Assembly: GCF_009363075.1 (NCBI RefSeq) | Contig: NZ_CP045293.1 | Span: forward strand, 2,914,001-2,978,000 | Direction: 5' to 3' | Length of the DNA stretch: 64,000 bases | From: Paenibacillus guangzhouensis | GTDB lineage: Bacteria; Bacillota; Bacilli; Paenibacillales; Paenibacillaceae | In this document: positions 15,028 through 34,149 of the stretch, one piece after another | Position numbering within the stretch: position 1 is the stretch's first letter | How the letters are laid out: each line of letters starts with the position of its first letter | Translations under genes and position numbers: made by a program | Notes under the pieces: generated by a model | What the model was told of the DNA's origin: nothing | The model's input: the letters and a program-made list of their open reading frames with translations, nothing else | The model's database searches: none

Positions 15028-15252
15028 TTCTCATCATCCCTTCTTTTCTGTATTGTGCGCAAAACAAAAAAACCTTTTAGCATTTCCACTAAAAAGGTCA
15101 CCGTACAAAAAAGAATCATGGTGCTGATCCTTCTGTCTCGGTCCCTTCGGCTCAGAGCAGAATCCATAGTCCACTAAGATATAGAGTTCAATTGGAATGC
15201 TAGTACAAATCTGTTAGAGTGCAGTTCAACAATCGTTGATACTGCCTCTTCA
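15028..15252 (-). promoter_or_regulatory. panB leader with a pan-motif-like stem and attenuator
   Basis: A 256-base spacer separates birA from panB. The minus-strand RNA starts after an extended -10 box. Its first hairpin (about 15217-15248) pairs GAG-GCAGT-TCAAC with GTTGA-ACTGC-CTC and leaves two unpaired A residues, one on each strand. This matches the known pan RNA motif described upstream of panB as a stem with two bulged A residues. A second hairpin follows at about 15133-15172 (TTCTG/CAGAA with an unpaired A), then a terminator 38 bases before panB. The layout fits a regulatory leader. The ligand is not known to me. Confidence 0.55.
15066..15097 (-). terminator. Terminator in the panB leader
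   Basis: Minus-strand stem CCTTTTTAG/CTAAAAGG (15089-15097 with 15073-15080) followed by seven T residues. It sits 38 bases before the panB start, so it is likely an attenuator. It could also end birA transcription. Confidence 0.8.
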
Positions 15253-30111: not shown

Positions 30112-30702
30112 CTATCGTCTGACCCTTGCCAACCAGTTCAAGAGCAACAAGGAGAATGTAATTCCTAACAATGACAGCGCGATCCAATAATGAGGATATG
30201 TAGGCACAACTTCGAGTATCGGTGGATCGCCAGCGTAAGCTACTGCAATTTGACTCAAATTCAAATCGATAGAAATATTCGCATCTCCGCCAACGAGCGC
30301 ATTGATCTGATTCAGTTGATCTGTATCTGAGGGCCCGCCAGCAATCATTAAATATAGAAAGCTACATAGAAATATAGCCATAAATCCAGCAATACATGCC
30401 GTCGCATTCCGTCTAATTTTCATGGAGAAGGAATAGCTTCGACTCGTGACGGGCATCAGCCATGCTGATTCCGTATAAATACGCGCCATGACGTTCCTGC
30501 TTAGATCCATATCCGCCCCATACATCGCATCAACCGGCGCTGTAAATTCTTGAATAAGCGTCTGACTTTCTTCCCATATTCTGAATTGCTGAGTACAATC
30601 CACACAATGTTCAAGATGTCGGTCTACATGGAGACGAACAGCATCATCCTCAGGCAAATCCCAATACTCCCCTAACAATTCTTGGACTTCTTCGCACTTC
30701 AT
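30112..30702 (-). CDS. Anti-sigma factor with zinc-finger ZAS domain
   Basis: A 196-residue membrane protein. The N-terminal domain shows the ZAS signature HLEHCVDC (H-x3-C-x2-C) after a Cys and helix (MKCEEVQELLGEYWDLPEDD), the sigma-binding part. Two membrane helices follow (around ACIAGFMAIFLCSFLYLMI and YWIALSLLGITFSLLLLNWL) with about 50 residues outside. It overlaps the sigma gene start-stop (ATGA), so sigma and anti-sigma are made together. The signal is unknown. Confidence 0.9.
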   Translation of the reverse strand: MKCEEVQELLGEYWDLPEDDAVRLHVDRHLEHCVDCTQQFRIWEESQTLIQEFTAPVDAMYGADMDLSRNVMARIYTESAWLMPVTSRSYSFSMKIRRNATACIAGFMAIFLCSFLYLMIAGGPSDTDQLNQINALVGGDANISIDLNLSQIAVAYAGDPPILEVVPTYPHYWIALSLLGITFSLLLLNWLARVRR

Positions 30703-31292
30703 CTGGATTTCATCCCTTCATATTCCTCGTAAATCGGTTCAGCAAAATAGGGTTCCAATTGATTTTTCACGCTTGCTCGTGCACGAAATAACAAGGATTT
30801 AACGGAACTCACCGTTTGCCCGAGAATATTAGCGATCTCTTGATAATCCATCTGATCGTATTCTCGTAATATAAGGGCTGATCTCTGCTTTTCTGGAAGA
30901 TTGTTAATTGCCTCGCGAACTAAGCTGACCTTCTCACTGCGCAGCACCTCTTGCTCTGGAACAATATCACTGGATGCAACAGGTACATACCCGCTCTCAT
31001 CGAGAGATACATTCGCAGCCTTCTGCTTGCGCAATTCACTCAGCACGGTATTCCGAGCAATTGTATACAACCATGTCGAAAAAGAAGCATCCACCTCACG
31101 AAACGAATGAAGGCTGCGAAAAGCCTTGTAGAACGTCTCGGAACATAAATCCTCTGCTAACAATTCCAGTTGCGCGCTTTTGAGCATATGAAAAATAAAT
31201 GCCACAATCTTGCGTTGGTAACGCCTCATCAGCTCCGCATAGAGCTCGACGTTCCCCTCTTTAATTTCACGAATTATCTGGGAATCGGTCAT
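30699..31292 (-). CDS. ECF-type RNA polymerase sigma factor
   Basis: A 197-residue sigma-70 ECF factor. Region 2 has LCSETFYKAFRSLHSF and FSTWLYTIARNTVLSELRK; region 4 has LPEKQRSALILREYDQM and the recognition helix IANILGQTVSSVKSLLFRAR. GGAGGG lies six bases before the ATG at 31292. An anti-sigma gene follows with ATGA overlap. A likely self-recognised promoter is at 31343-31370. SigW/SigX-like, but the exact group cannot be fixed without alignment. Confidence 0.93.
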   Translation of the reverse strand: MTDSQIIREIKEGNVELYAELMRRYQRKIVAFIFHMLKSAQLELLAEDLCSETFYKAFRSLHSFREVDASFSTWLYTIARNTVLSELRKQKAANVSLDESGYVPVASSDIVPEQEVLRSEKVSLVREAINNLPEKQRSALILREYDQMDYQEIANILGQTVSSVKSLLFRARASVKNQLEPYFAEPIYEEYEGMKSR

Positions 31293-31752
31293 GAAATACG
31301 ACCCTCCTTGCCTTTCCAAGAACATCCCAGCTCGTTACATAGTTATACCGAACTGAGTATAAAAAGTTGCGGTGCCAACACCACTTTATTTCGAAACATG
31401 CACTTTTATTTACGTTTTTGATAATTTAATCCAGATATTAGGGTAAGATACCTAAATTTTATTGTACCATATCCTATCCCTCTCAAAGATAAAGATTTTT
31501 TAAGAATTGCTCTGCATTCGATGAAAAAAAAGTAACTATTCACACAAATATTACCTATCGATCTCATACGCTCGAATGTTATTCGCAGGACGATTGTATG
31601 ATTCATAGAAATGACGATTCAAGATATGTAAAAAGTTGCGTGTAACCCTTCTAACCGATGCCTACAAGTAAGTCCTCAGATTATCGTAAATCCATCTCAA
31701 AGTAAAGGGAGTAAAAACAACCATTTCCATCTCGGCCAATATCTCTTTACAT
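31293..31752. other. Upstream region of the ECF sigma gene
   Basis: Part of a 607-bp gene-free interval between tyrA and the sigma gene. It contains an ECF-like promoter (31343-31370), a second GCAACTTTTT motif (31630-31639) with CGTC 13 bases further away than usual, and an extended -10 element (TGGTACAAT, minus, 31461-31469) that could be a SigA promoter. The middle is AT-rich; no open frame with a ribosome site is convincing. Confidence 0.5.
31343..31370 (-). promoter_or_regulatory. Candidate autoregulatory ECF promoter
   Basis: Minus strand GCAACTTTTT (31361-31370) with a CGGTATAA -10 region (31343-31350), 15 bases between AAC and CG. This fits the AAC...CG pattern of ECF promoters and sits 50-80 bases before the sigma start. 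Confidence 0.5.
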
Positions 31753-31782
31753 AAAAAAAAGACCGCCTAACATGTAGGCGGT
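31753..31782 (-). terminator. Terminator of the small RNA (and of trp-tyrA readthrough)
   Basis: Stem ACCGCCTA/TAGGCGGT (31775-31782 with 31762-31769) followed by eight T residues. Confidence 0.92.
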
Positions 31783-31830
31783 TGCACAAAGTGCAATTAT
31801 TTGGATAGGAGTGGAGAGAAACCATACTGT
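31753..31830 (-). ncRNA. Candidate small RNA, about 78 nt
   Basis: A consensus promoter is followed directly by about 78 nt ending in a strong terminator, with no open frame preceded by a ribosome site. The RNA has an unpaired pyrimidine stretch (TCTCTCCACTCCTATCC as DNA) complementary to Shine-Dalgarno sequences, then a hairpin TTGCAC/GTGCAA (31782-31796) and the terminator. Unpaired C/U-rich regions of this sort base-pair with ribosome sites in several known Gram-positive small RNAs. It lies downstream of tyrA on the same strand, separated by its own promoter. Confidence 0.6.
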
Positions 31831-31836
31831 ACTTTT

Positions 31837-31865
31837 ATTATATGTATACGTTTTCATTTTGTCAA
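31837..31865 (-). promoter_or_regulatory. Consensus SigA promoter
   Basis: TTGACA (31860-31865) and TATAAT (31837-31842), both perfect, spaced by 17 bases. It is 35 bases after the tyrA stop on the same strand, with no gene behind it except the candidate small RNA. Confidence 0.9.
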
Positions 31866-31899
31866 CACTATTTTTGCCAAAAAAATACTTCTCAAAAAT

Positions 31900-33000
31900 T
31901 TAAACGTATACCGTAAAGCCTAAGGTAGGCAATACTTGCTGTGCACGGTCCCAATCCTTCTCATTTCGGAACGATAATCGAAGCACGCCAGGTACATCCT
32001 CACGGCTCTCAATGATCTGCAAATTGCTTAGGTTCAAATGCTGGTTCCCGAGCTCCGTTGCAATTCGTCCGATGACGCCCGGCTCATCCGGTACGTCGAC
32101 GTAGACGTCATACAGCGAGGTGATCATGCCTTTCCGCCGTTCAGGCAGCTGACTGCGGAATGCTCCCGCTTGCGTGAATTCCTGAATGATCCCTTCCCCA
32201 TCTTCACGGTTCAGAATATCAATAAAGGCGTCTACTTGATTGTTCCAATCCTTCAATAATCCTAGCAATACGTTCTTATTGTTGAGCAGAATATCACGCC
32301 AGATATACGGATCGCTGTTCGCAATCCGAGTGATATCGCGAAACCCACCAGCCGCCAAGCTCTGGTAGAGCGGATTCGTATCATTGTACTGCCTAATCTG
32401 ATTCACGAGCGCTACTGCAATGAGATGCGGCAAATGACTAATGGCGCCAACGATATCATCATGAAGCTTCGGATCCACGCGAACGATCTGTGCTCTCGTA
32501 TATTTCAGAAGCTCTTCCAATCGATGGTAAGCTTCTTCCGAAGCATCTTCTTCTGGCGTCAGGACATAATACGCATTCTCGAACAATAATGTGGAAGCTG
32601 CTTCGACACCGGAACGCTCTGATCCCGCCATCGGATGACCTCCGATGAAGGCAACCCCTTTCTTGCTCCAATCCGTCTTCTGCGCGCATGCAGCAATAGA
32701 AGCCTTCGTACTGCCAACATCTGTAATGATGCAGCCTGGCTTGAGCGGCAGCTCGCTTAACCGCTGCAGATATTCCTCAAGATTCCCCACTGGGACACAG
32801 ATGAAAATAAAATCAGCATCCAGCGCCGCCTCTTCAAACGACGTTGTCGCCATATCTACGACATGGCGGTCCAAATATTTCTGAGCTGATTTAGGATTAT
32901 TGGAATGACCCATCACGGTGATCCCCGGCTTGCCTTTGAAACACAAAGCCAGAGATCCACCGATCAGTCCTACACCGTAAATTGCAATTTTGATCGACAT
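31900..33000 (-). CDS. tyrA: Prephenate dehydrogenase with ACT domain
   Basis: NAD-dependent conversion of prephenate to 4-hydroxyphenylpyruvate for tyrosine. The 366 residues show IAIYGVGLIGGSLALCFKG (Rossmann), HPMAGSERSGV with the substrate-site His, and SHLPHLIAVAL; the C-terminal 75 residues form an ACT domain (VYVDVPDEPGVIGRIATELG), suggesting feedback control. Last gene of the trp-hisC-tyrA group. The aroE gene that follows in B. subtilis is absent; a promoter-sRNA unit occupies the spot. Confidence 0.95.
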   Translation of the reverse strand: MSIKIAIYGVGLIGGSLALCFKGKPGITVMGHSNNPKSAQKYLDRHVVDMATTSFEEAALDADFIFICVPVGNLEEYLQRLSELPLKPGCIITDVGSTKASIAACAQKTDWSKKGVAFIGGHPMAGSERSGVEAASTLLFENAYYVLTPEEDASEEAYHRLEELLKYTRAQIVRVDPKLHDDIVGAISHLPHLIAVALVNQIRQYNDTNPLYQSLAAGGFRDITRIANSDPYIWRDILLNNKNVLLGLLKDWNNQVDAFIDILNREDGEGIIQEFTQAGAFRSQLPERRKGMITSLYDVYVDVPDEPGVIGRIATELGNQHLNLSNLQIIESREDVPGVLRLSFRNEKDWDRAQQVLPTLGFTVYV

Positions 33001-33051
33001 GTCAGTTCACTTCTTTTATGAAATATAGTCATGCTATCGATTGCAGGAATA

Positions 33052-34149
33052 TTATACTTCTACGGCTACTTCCTGCAATACTTGTTCTAATGCTTGAATA
33101 AACTTGCGATTCTGTTCTTCGCTGCCAACCGTCACGCGGATATAAGTTGGATATGCCTTATGACCAGCACGTACGATGATCCCTTTACGCATGAGCTCAT
33201 TGAATACCGTCATCGCAGGACGTTGAACGTCGAACATCACGAAGTTGCCGTGCGCTGGGAATGAAGATAATCCAAGACGGCTGAATTCGGCTTGCAAATA
33301 TGCGATACCCGCTGCATTCGAGTCACGACACTGACGGATGAAATCTTGGTCGCCTAGTGCAGCTAACGCAGCAGCTTGCGCAAAACGGGATGTATTAAAC
33401 GGCTCACGCACCTGATTAATGAGCTTCACAACCTCAGGATGACCGATGCCATAACCAATCCGTAAAGACGCTAGACCATAGATTTTGGAGAATGTACGCA
33501 GTGTAATGAGATTCTCATATTGCGGTAATAGCTCAAGACCATCGGGATACGATGGATCTGTCACATATTCGCAGTATGCTTCATCCAACACAACAAGTAC
33601 ATGCTTCGGCACTTGATCCAAGAAGGAGACTAGTTCTTCCTTCGAGACAATCGTACCCGTTGGGTTATTGGGGTTGCAGACCCAGACTACTTTCGTCTTA
33701 TCGGTAATCCGTGCGAGCATCCCGGGCAGATCATGCTTCCCGTCAACAAGAGGCACCTGGATGCATACGGCACCCTCAATATCCGTATTATGCTTATATT
33801 GCGGGAACGTCTGGTCCGCCATAATCGTCTCGTCGCCCGGAACGATGAATGCTCGAGCAATCATAAGAATGATCTCATCCGATCCTGCCCCGTATACCAA
33901 TTGGTTCGGATTTACATTGAAATGTGCTGCAATCGCTGCGGACAGCTCAACCGCAAATCCATCTGGATAGATGCTGACTTGCGAGAGCTCATTCGCAATA
34001 GCTTGCTTCGCCTTCTCAGAGCAGCCGAACGGGTTCTCGTTCGACGCCAGCTTAATGACTTCCGTCAAGCCTAGCTCCCGCTTCACATCTTCAATGGGTT
34101 TACCCGGTTGATATACTGGTAAATTCACTATATTTGATTTAGGCTGCAT
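33052..34149 (-). CDS. hisC: Histidinol-phosphate / aromatic aminotransferase
   Basis: PLP-dependent class II aminotransferase, 365 residues. The Lys-anchor motif TFSKIYGLASLRIGYG, SNENPFG near the start and NPNNPTGT are standard. In B. subtilis the same enzyme serves histidine, tyrosine and phenylalanine synthesis, which explains its place between trpA and tyrA. Start ATG at 34149 has AAAGGATG upstream; an ATG nine bases earlier abuts that site. Confidence 0.95.
   Translation of the reverse strand: MQPKSNIVNLPVYQPGKPIEDVKRELGLTEVIKLASNENPFGCSEKAKQAIANELSQVSIYPDGFAVELSAAIAAHFNVNPNQLVYGAGSDEIILMIARAFIVPGDETIMADQTFPQYKHNTDIEGAVCIQVPLVDGKHDLPGMLARITDKTKVVWVCNPNNPTGTIVSKEELVSFLDQVPKHVLVVLDEAYCEYVTDPSYPDGLELLPQYENLITLRTFSKIYGLASLRIGYGIGHPEVVKLINQVREPFNTSRFAQAAALAALGDQDFIRQCRDSNAAGIAYLQAEFSRLGLSSFPAHGNFVMFDVQRPAMTVFNELMRKGIIVRAGHKAYPTYIRVTVGSEEQNRKFIQALEQVLQEVAVEV

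Follow-up and report, generated by a model that had tools for sequence, protein, structure and literature searches.

The window, that is, the whole 64,000-nucleotide stretch of Paenibacillus guangzhouensis DNA analyzed herein, contains a short gene that probably encodes a CcpA-repressed, trans-acting small RNA (sRNA), which would be free-standing, of ancestral origin in a large part of the class Bacilli, and equipped with an exposed C/U-rich segment covering Shine-Dalgarno (SD) sequences; its expression, CcpA control, pairing, and targets are what we infer from the sequence. The first-pass annotation had proposed a self-standing sRNA gene at this site, and this turned out to be the best reading in view of its architecture, its conservation, the compensating changes in its stems, and its retention of one genomic place in both orientations.

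As summarized in Table 1, the gene lies on the minus strand behind tyrA. The perfect SigA promoter and the terminator with an 8-bp stem and eight T residues that had been described earlier were both present at 31865-31753, with an RNA of approximately 79 nt. The promoter, TTGACA-17-TATAAT, matched the SigA type at 12 of 12 positions and was the sole such site within 30500-33500, and the 5' end of the RNA is predicted from the promoter position to be near 31831-31830. The terminator stem (31782-31762, 8 bp with a 5-nt loop) is followed by a C and the eight T residues at 31760-31753. A 25-nt core of the gene occurred only once in the window when up to three mismatches were allowed, and was found in none of 100 shuffled sequences. 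A covariance model of the family, which includes the own genome among the sequences used for its construction, matched the sRNA there with an E value of 1.9e-18.

Table 1. Features of the sRNA locus and its neighbors in the window (positions are those of the window).
Feature	Positions	Strand	Basis or remark
sRNA gene, ~79 nt	31753..31831	minus	Promoter and terminator scan, DNA search of the order, covariance model
-35 box TTGACA	31860..31865	minus	TTGAC in 96/96, last A in 88/96 order loci
-10 box TATAAT	31837..31842	minus	Five of six bases in 95-96/96, fifth base in 77/96
cre-like operator TGAAAACGTATACA	31843..31856	minus	Occupies most of the promoter spacer
Near-invariant head UACAGUAUGGUUUCUCUCCACUCCUAUCC, 29 nt	31803..31831	minus	Contains the C/U-rich anti-SD-like stretch 31818-31803
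Small hairpin UUGCA-CUU-UGCAA	31783..31795	minus	Fold; hairpin with different stems at the same place in relatives
Intrinsic terminator, 8-bp stem and eight T	31753..31782	minus	Promoter/terminator scan
tyrA, prephenate dehydrogenase, conserved upstream neighbor	31900..33000	minus	Pfam PF02153, PF20463, PF01842; neighbor clusters
ECF-type sigma factor, usual downstream neighbor in the order, outside the sRNA unit	30699..31325	minus	Pfam PF04542, PF08281

By a DNA search using a 121-base query, the sRNA was found in 96 of the 98 genomes of the order, corresponding to 92 of the 93 good-quality genomes and to 40 of the 41 genera; the two genomes without a match were one of 1.4 Mb with 91% completeness (G082) and one with 81% completeness (G088). 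Column counts in an alignment of all 96 loci revealed that 21 columns of the 29-nt head (31831-31803) were identical in every locus and that the other eight were shared by 89-95 of them. The pyrimidine stretch, on the conservation of which the first-pass annotation had staked its reading, was thus all but invariant in 96 species. The sequence on the 3' side of the head varied freely across these loci, yet the small hairpin and the terminator could still form.

The strand at 31831-31752 was predicted to fold with -18.7 kcal/mol, as compared with -10.4 ± 2.4 kcal/mol for 200 shuffled sequences, none of which was as good (z = -3.45). Among 201 distinct RNAs collected from relatives, the terminator hairpin was recognized in 188 and the middle hairpin in addition in 178, with 64 different outer stems for the former and 53 for the latter. 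The first part of the RNA had been taken to be unpaired and pyrimidine-rich, and the exposure predicted for the 201 RNAs bore this out, with a mean unpaired probability of 0.81-0.98 over most of the C/U stretch, except that a CCA in mid-stretch (approximately 0.55), the last two bases (0.61), and a UGG (low) were less open. In an alignment of 16 sequences (A2), which were hand-picked for like architecture so that its pair counts lean towards structure, the covariation score was 0.289 versus 0.153 in shuffled alignments (0 of 500 as high), paired cells amounted to 92% versus 85.5% in the shuffles and 29-47% in slid versions, and cells changed on both sides numbered 17 versus 6.1. Two of the five measures were not above the shuffles, namely the both-side-changed pairs (3 versus 2.5) and the further pair types (10 versus 10.8). 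Of the six counted pairs of the terminator, two showed two-sided changes, seen in 7 and 8 of the 16 sequences, respectively. The covariance analysis across relatives that had been suggested at the outset yielded compensating changes in both the hairpin and the terminator stems, and both elements were kept in the relatives.

The promoter spacer contains TGAAAACGTATACA, which differs at a single position from TGWNANCGNTNWCA, taken here as the cre consensus; this cre-like operator had gone unnoticed in the first-pass annotation. When scored against this consensus, the spacer site had one mismatch in 88 of the 96 order loci and two in the remaining eight, and windows of 36 bases drawn at random from these loci had one mismatch in 0.12% and two in 2.8% of cases. 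The bases TG-AA-CG-AT-C within the spacer were identical in all 96 loci, and the departure from the consensus was always A for T at one position; given this constant A, the repressor may also be a LacI-family member other than CcpA. In 68 of the 96 loci, a second cre-like site with at most two mismatches was detected in the 45-base upstream stretch, where it adjoins the -35 box or overlaps its edge; inspection of the window by eye gave no such second site. The own genome contains a CcpA gene at C1:883603, the product of which was the only one of 28 model matches to exceed the curated cut-off. By virtue of its conserved cre-like promoter site, the sRNA fits the CcpA regulon as a putative member.

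The operator appeared to be arranged differently in distant relatives. Among 29 distant loci, which were picked by name with several species per genus (five of Brevibacillus) and with L190 (named Bacillus) omitted, a site with at most one mismatch was located in the promoter in 5 and within 70 bases behind the core in 19, versus a control rate of 0.36% per 36-base window, the rates not being strictly matched because the tail, upstream, and control windows span 70, 45, and 36 bases, respectively. In the tail sites inspected (L122, L129, L144, L153, L167, and others), the cre-like palindrome lies in the terminator stem and constitutes the upper portion of this hairpin, which represents a testable regulatory arrangement; among the 19 tail sites, that of L108 is devoid of the central CG. 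Eight of the 29 loci, including both of Aneurinibacillus, had no site with at most one mismatch in either the promoter or the tail. In some of the divergent homologues (L290, L294, and L292), the promoters carry CCGGTCGTTCG, CCAGTCGTTCG, or CAGTCGGTCGAG, perhaps the site of another repressor, and no evident cre was seen in them by eye.

We propose that a strong SigA-type promoter would drive the sRNA, and that, in this order of bacteria, in the presence of a preferred sugar CcpA, or a close relative of the LacI family, would occupy the cre site of the spacer between the two promoter boxes and switch the gene off. Upon exhaustion of the sugar, the sRNA would accumulate, and its C/U-rich head, 5'-UCUCUCCACUCCUAUCC-3', would pair with the SD regions (GGAG, AGGAGUGG-like, or GGAUAGGAGUGGAGAGA-like) of several mRNAs so as to block their translation, with the hairpin and the terminator serving for stability and for ending the transcript. 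The locus offers a ready test of how carbon catabolite repression is coupled to post-transcriptional control in bacteria other than B. subtilis.

The distribution of the gene extends well beyond the order, a class-wide spread that the first-pass annotation had not brought up. The 24-nt core pattern was present in 125 of 398 class genomes (123 of the 391 of good quality), and the reversed control pattern in none. Each holder had one copy, except for a single genome (G327) with two, at C1:1017047 and 2251214, which was alone in this among the 398. The holders among the matches listed, to be regarded as a lower bound of the genera, were Paenibacillus, Cohnella, Brevibacillus, Aneurinibacillus, Shouchella, Halalkalibacter, Alkalihalobacterium, Alteribacillus, Marinococcus, Geomicrobium, Pseudalkalibacillus, Caldalkalibacillus, Melghirimyces, and Thermoactinomyces. 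The covariance model, built from 55 sequences (A1) thinned by tail similarity from the 201 distinct ones, with those under 71 nt and L121 omitted, gave matches at E ≤ 1, of which many were weak, in 252 of 396 class genomes; by hand count, approximately 152 genomes had E < 1e-5. Twenty more divergent homologues were read, eight of which carry the exact GGTTTCTCTCCACTCCTATC, the rest differing at a few places. In a draw of 299 genomes from the phylum, which seems to lie nearly all outside the class Bacilli, five had a match at E ≤ 1e-4, each being either the own genome or a member of its family; the remainder without a match comprised 6 class genomes, 14 of other classes, and 274 unlisted ones. 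The core pattern gave 0 matches in the viral contigs searched. In one genome (G015:C33:23280-23528), a 23-base piece matching part of the middle hairpin of the sRNA occurs in three repeats at a spacing of 113 bases.

To our knowledge, few trans-acting sRNAs are conserved past the genus or the family, and here the head holds 21 identical bases over 96 genomes of the order and roughly one third of the class genomes sampled carry the core. The literature search gave no paper recognizable by its title, the start of its abstract, or a sequence string as describing this sRNA, which counts as weak evidence since subscription papers were mostly outside its coverage.

An anti-SD mode of action fits the sequence of the head, and candidate target sites were accordingly sought before start codons. 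The own genome contains an 18-nt perfect complement to the head (L345, G000:C1:5724245-5724268), which covers the SD of an MMPL-like transporter gene and ends three bases before its ATG; a TetR-like regulator gene precedes the transporter gene (families assigned by eye). The predicted duplex, at a site chosen after the search, had an energy of -38.0 kcal/mol versus -29.1 kcal/mol for the best of 2000 shuffled heads; no equal was listed in the two nearest relatives. Scans for TAGGAGTGG or GGAGTGGAG before ATG in four genomes gave no useful target. With AGGAGTGGAGA before ATG, 39 of 59 genomes matched, and the loci read, comprising 30 of the listed places plus those from the two former scans, included five pairs of related proteins. 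The 12-nt complement GGATAGGAGTGG preceded an ATG in 40 of 246 genomes; among the 30 loci that were read, the repeated genes recurred only within one genus each (by eye, an alpha/beta-hydrolase and an ABC permease in 5 genomes each, and one more gene in 2). Start codons are in any case often preceded by SD-like patterns, and the excess over the reversed-pattern control is not evidence, because the pattern resembles an SD and its reverse does not. As to the alpha/beta-hydrolase-like gene, five genomes of one genus (L443, L444, L446, L447, and L449) have GGATAGGAGTGG as its ribosome site, which in some of these loci is immediately preceded by a cre-like half (GCTTTCA, GCGCTTACA).

The start of ptsI was examined separately through an HPr (PF00381) search in 59 genomes, from which 20 regions were inspected; the filter applied to these recovered nine ptsI-like starts and no start of ptsH. 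Strong sites were confined to two genomes of one genus (L473, -25.5 kcal/mol; L484, -27.6 kcal/mol), and the other seven starts were ordinary (-11.2 to -17.7 kcal/mol, the mean of 1361 starts being -15.1 kcal/mol). Neither the pattern scans nor the ptsI test gave a target conserved across the order. Either the targets would differ between genera and be recognized through short seeds, or the head would have one invariant partner.

The latter possibility, in which the sRNA mainly binds a protein or one invariant structured RNA instead of many ribosome sites, is in our view rather unlikely. A single partner would explain why the 29-nt head has hardly changed over the whole class, and the lack of a conserved mRNA target in the scans points the same way, as does the conserved head being longer than an ordinary seed and including GUAUGGUUU, a part without SD complementarity. 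Furthermore, the GUAUGG of a number of distant genera (Shouchella, Halalkalibacter, Marinococcus, and others) is able to pair with CCAUAC or CCAUAU, which places the C/U stretch in a 17-nt loop. Against this, the center of the head, UCUCUCCACUCCUAUCC, is of the C-rich type that, according to PMC8464778, is used by RoxS and proposed for FsrA. A further-reaching proposal, which we regard as doubtful, is that of a carbon-status RNA ancestral to Bacilli, with its head locked to a single invariant partner, in which the operator has moved from the promoter spacer to the terminator hairpin with the control kept; if true, the terminator would double as a CcpA operator.

The repression of translation at several ribosome sites, which we prefer, invites comparison with the C-rich-region (CRR) sRNAs of Gram-positive bacteria, regarded here as a working group and not as a homology family. 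The sRNA shares with this group its own promoter and intrinsic terminator, an intergenic position, and a conserved C/U stretch exposed by prediction. One of these, CsfG, is presumably the opposite strand of the Rfam ylbH leader RF00516 and, going by a paper title, is said to be 'highly conserved in endospore formers'. Identity with CsfG was rejected, as the opposite strand of the sRNA scored 16.8 bits versus the RF00516 cut-off of 50. A separate RF00516 copy in the own genome (G000:C1:1048395-1048521) scored 68.8 bits, over the cut-off, and is followed by genes that by eye are rsmD-like and coaD-like. The CsfG-type strand there carries GGUUUCUCCUCUCCC, a point of likeness to the sRNA; its direct similarity to the head is weak, 34 of 1000 shuffles scoring as high. 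In PMC8216469, CsfG is grouped with RoxS and FsrA as sRNAs having C-rich regions.

RoxS/RsaE is described as a 115-nt sRNA tied to central metabolism that binds its targets by C-rich regions (PMC8216469 and PMC8464778), and the likeness to the sRNA resides in the same kind of C-rich sequence at the center (PMC8464778). Unlike the sRNA, RoxS of B. subtilis is under the control of ResD and Rex. The RsaE/RoxS model (RF01820) was rejected as an identity, with no match in the window or, at E ≤ 1, in the own genome; across the six genomes searched, nothing exceeded the cut-off. FsrA, an 84-nt sRNA whose C-rich regions are proposed to act on ribosome sites, differs in belonging to the Fur-controlled iron response, and the one proven FsrA pairing proceeds without the C-rich regions (PMC8464778). 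SR1, likewise according to PMC8464778, is expressed under gluconeogenic conditions from a SigA promoter, with CcpN binding in the spacer and upstream of the -35 box and CcpA playing a lesser role; in contrast to the sRNA, it is 205 nt long, codes for a peptide, and obeys a different repressor.

Regulatory parallels, according to PMC8216469, are RosA of B. subtilis and RsaI of S. aureus, which are CcpA-repressed, stand-alone sRNAs of carbon metabolism. Both carry G-rich regions, RsaI having a C-rich one as well, and RosA is a proven sponge (PMC8216469). The sRNA could in principle be its mirror image, a sponge trapping G-rich sRNAs, in that it is C/U-rich and probably CcpA-repressed like RosA (PMC8216469); we consider this quite improbable, and, unlike in RosA and RsaI, no G-rich region was found on reading the sequence of the sRNA. 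The sRNA is neither RsaE/RoxS nor CsfG by model, the comparison by sequence with FsrA, SR1, RosA, and RsaI consisting of the Rfam scan, and it was rated as a new C/U-rich sRNA family, unusual in the depth of its conservation and in its roaming operator.

The genomic place of the gene bears on whether it is free-standing. Flanking proteins were clustered for 244 loci, which overlap partly (the same species sometimes being present as two records); the neighbors in the window were named by Pfam, and aroA and others in relatives were read from the sequences. In 183 of these loci, at least one of the two closest same-strand ORFs upstream was tyrA, aroA, or hisC, in 25 the sRNA was inverted beside tyrA, aroA, or hisC, and in 36 it lay elsewhere or had no assignment. 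Among the divergent homologues, 11 of the 19 read by eye adjoin aroA, tyrA, or hisC. The sRNA thus stays beside the hisC-tyrA-aroA cluster in either orientation. The first-pass annotation had placed it 'in the place of aroE behind tyrA', of which the second part held, and the first did not, since the sRNA is no stand-in for aroE and follows tyrA, aroA, or hisC in the relatives. Despite being mostly at one chromosomal place, it is without a family in Rfam 15, a scan of the window giving none over the gathering score at the sRNA and 14 sub-threshold matches at E ≤ 10.

On the downstream side, the end of the sRNA is separated from the sigma-factor ORF by about 430 nt. That the element serves this gene as a terminated leader (attenuator or riboswitch) is suggested by the sigma gene often being next on the same strand in the order, and is very improbable in view of the inverted loci and those elsewhere or without assignment, of the different downstream genes in distant genera, and of the stems, which vary freely with no conserved alternative pairing seen. 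We rejected the leader on account of the inversion in place and the changing downstream genes, and since the gene inverts in place with its own promoter, head, and terminator intact, it would be a free-standing RNA. The stretch 30112-31325 on the minus strand comprises the sigma factor and, behind it, a zf-HC2 zinc-finger protein, perhaps its anti-sigma factor.

A small protein, either of 36 aa from 31857 or read from the core ATG at 31825, has next to no probability: open frames do exist, two mechanically called ORFs of 36 and 42 aa crossing the element, but no SD was seen, the 36-aa frame starts inside the promoter, neither ORF has a Pfam match, the core-ATG frame has no stop inside the RNA in 109 of the 201 RNAs and stops at scattered places in the others, some distant homologues are without the ATG, and third positions of codons vary no more than first and second ones, all in keeping with the initial judgment that there is no plausible frame or ribosome site and with the absence of a conserved stop in the 201 relatives. 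Elsewhere in the window, the sole Rfam match was the pan motif (RF01749) at 15129-15248 on the minus strand, with 44.4 bits versus a cut-off of 36.2.
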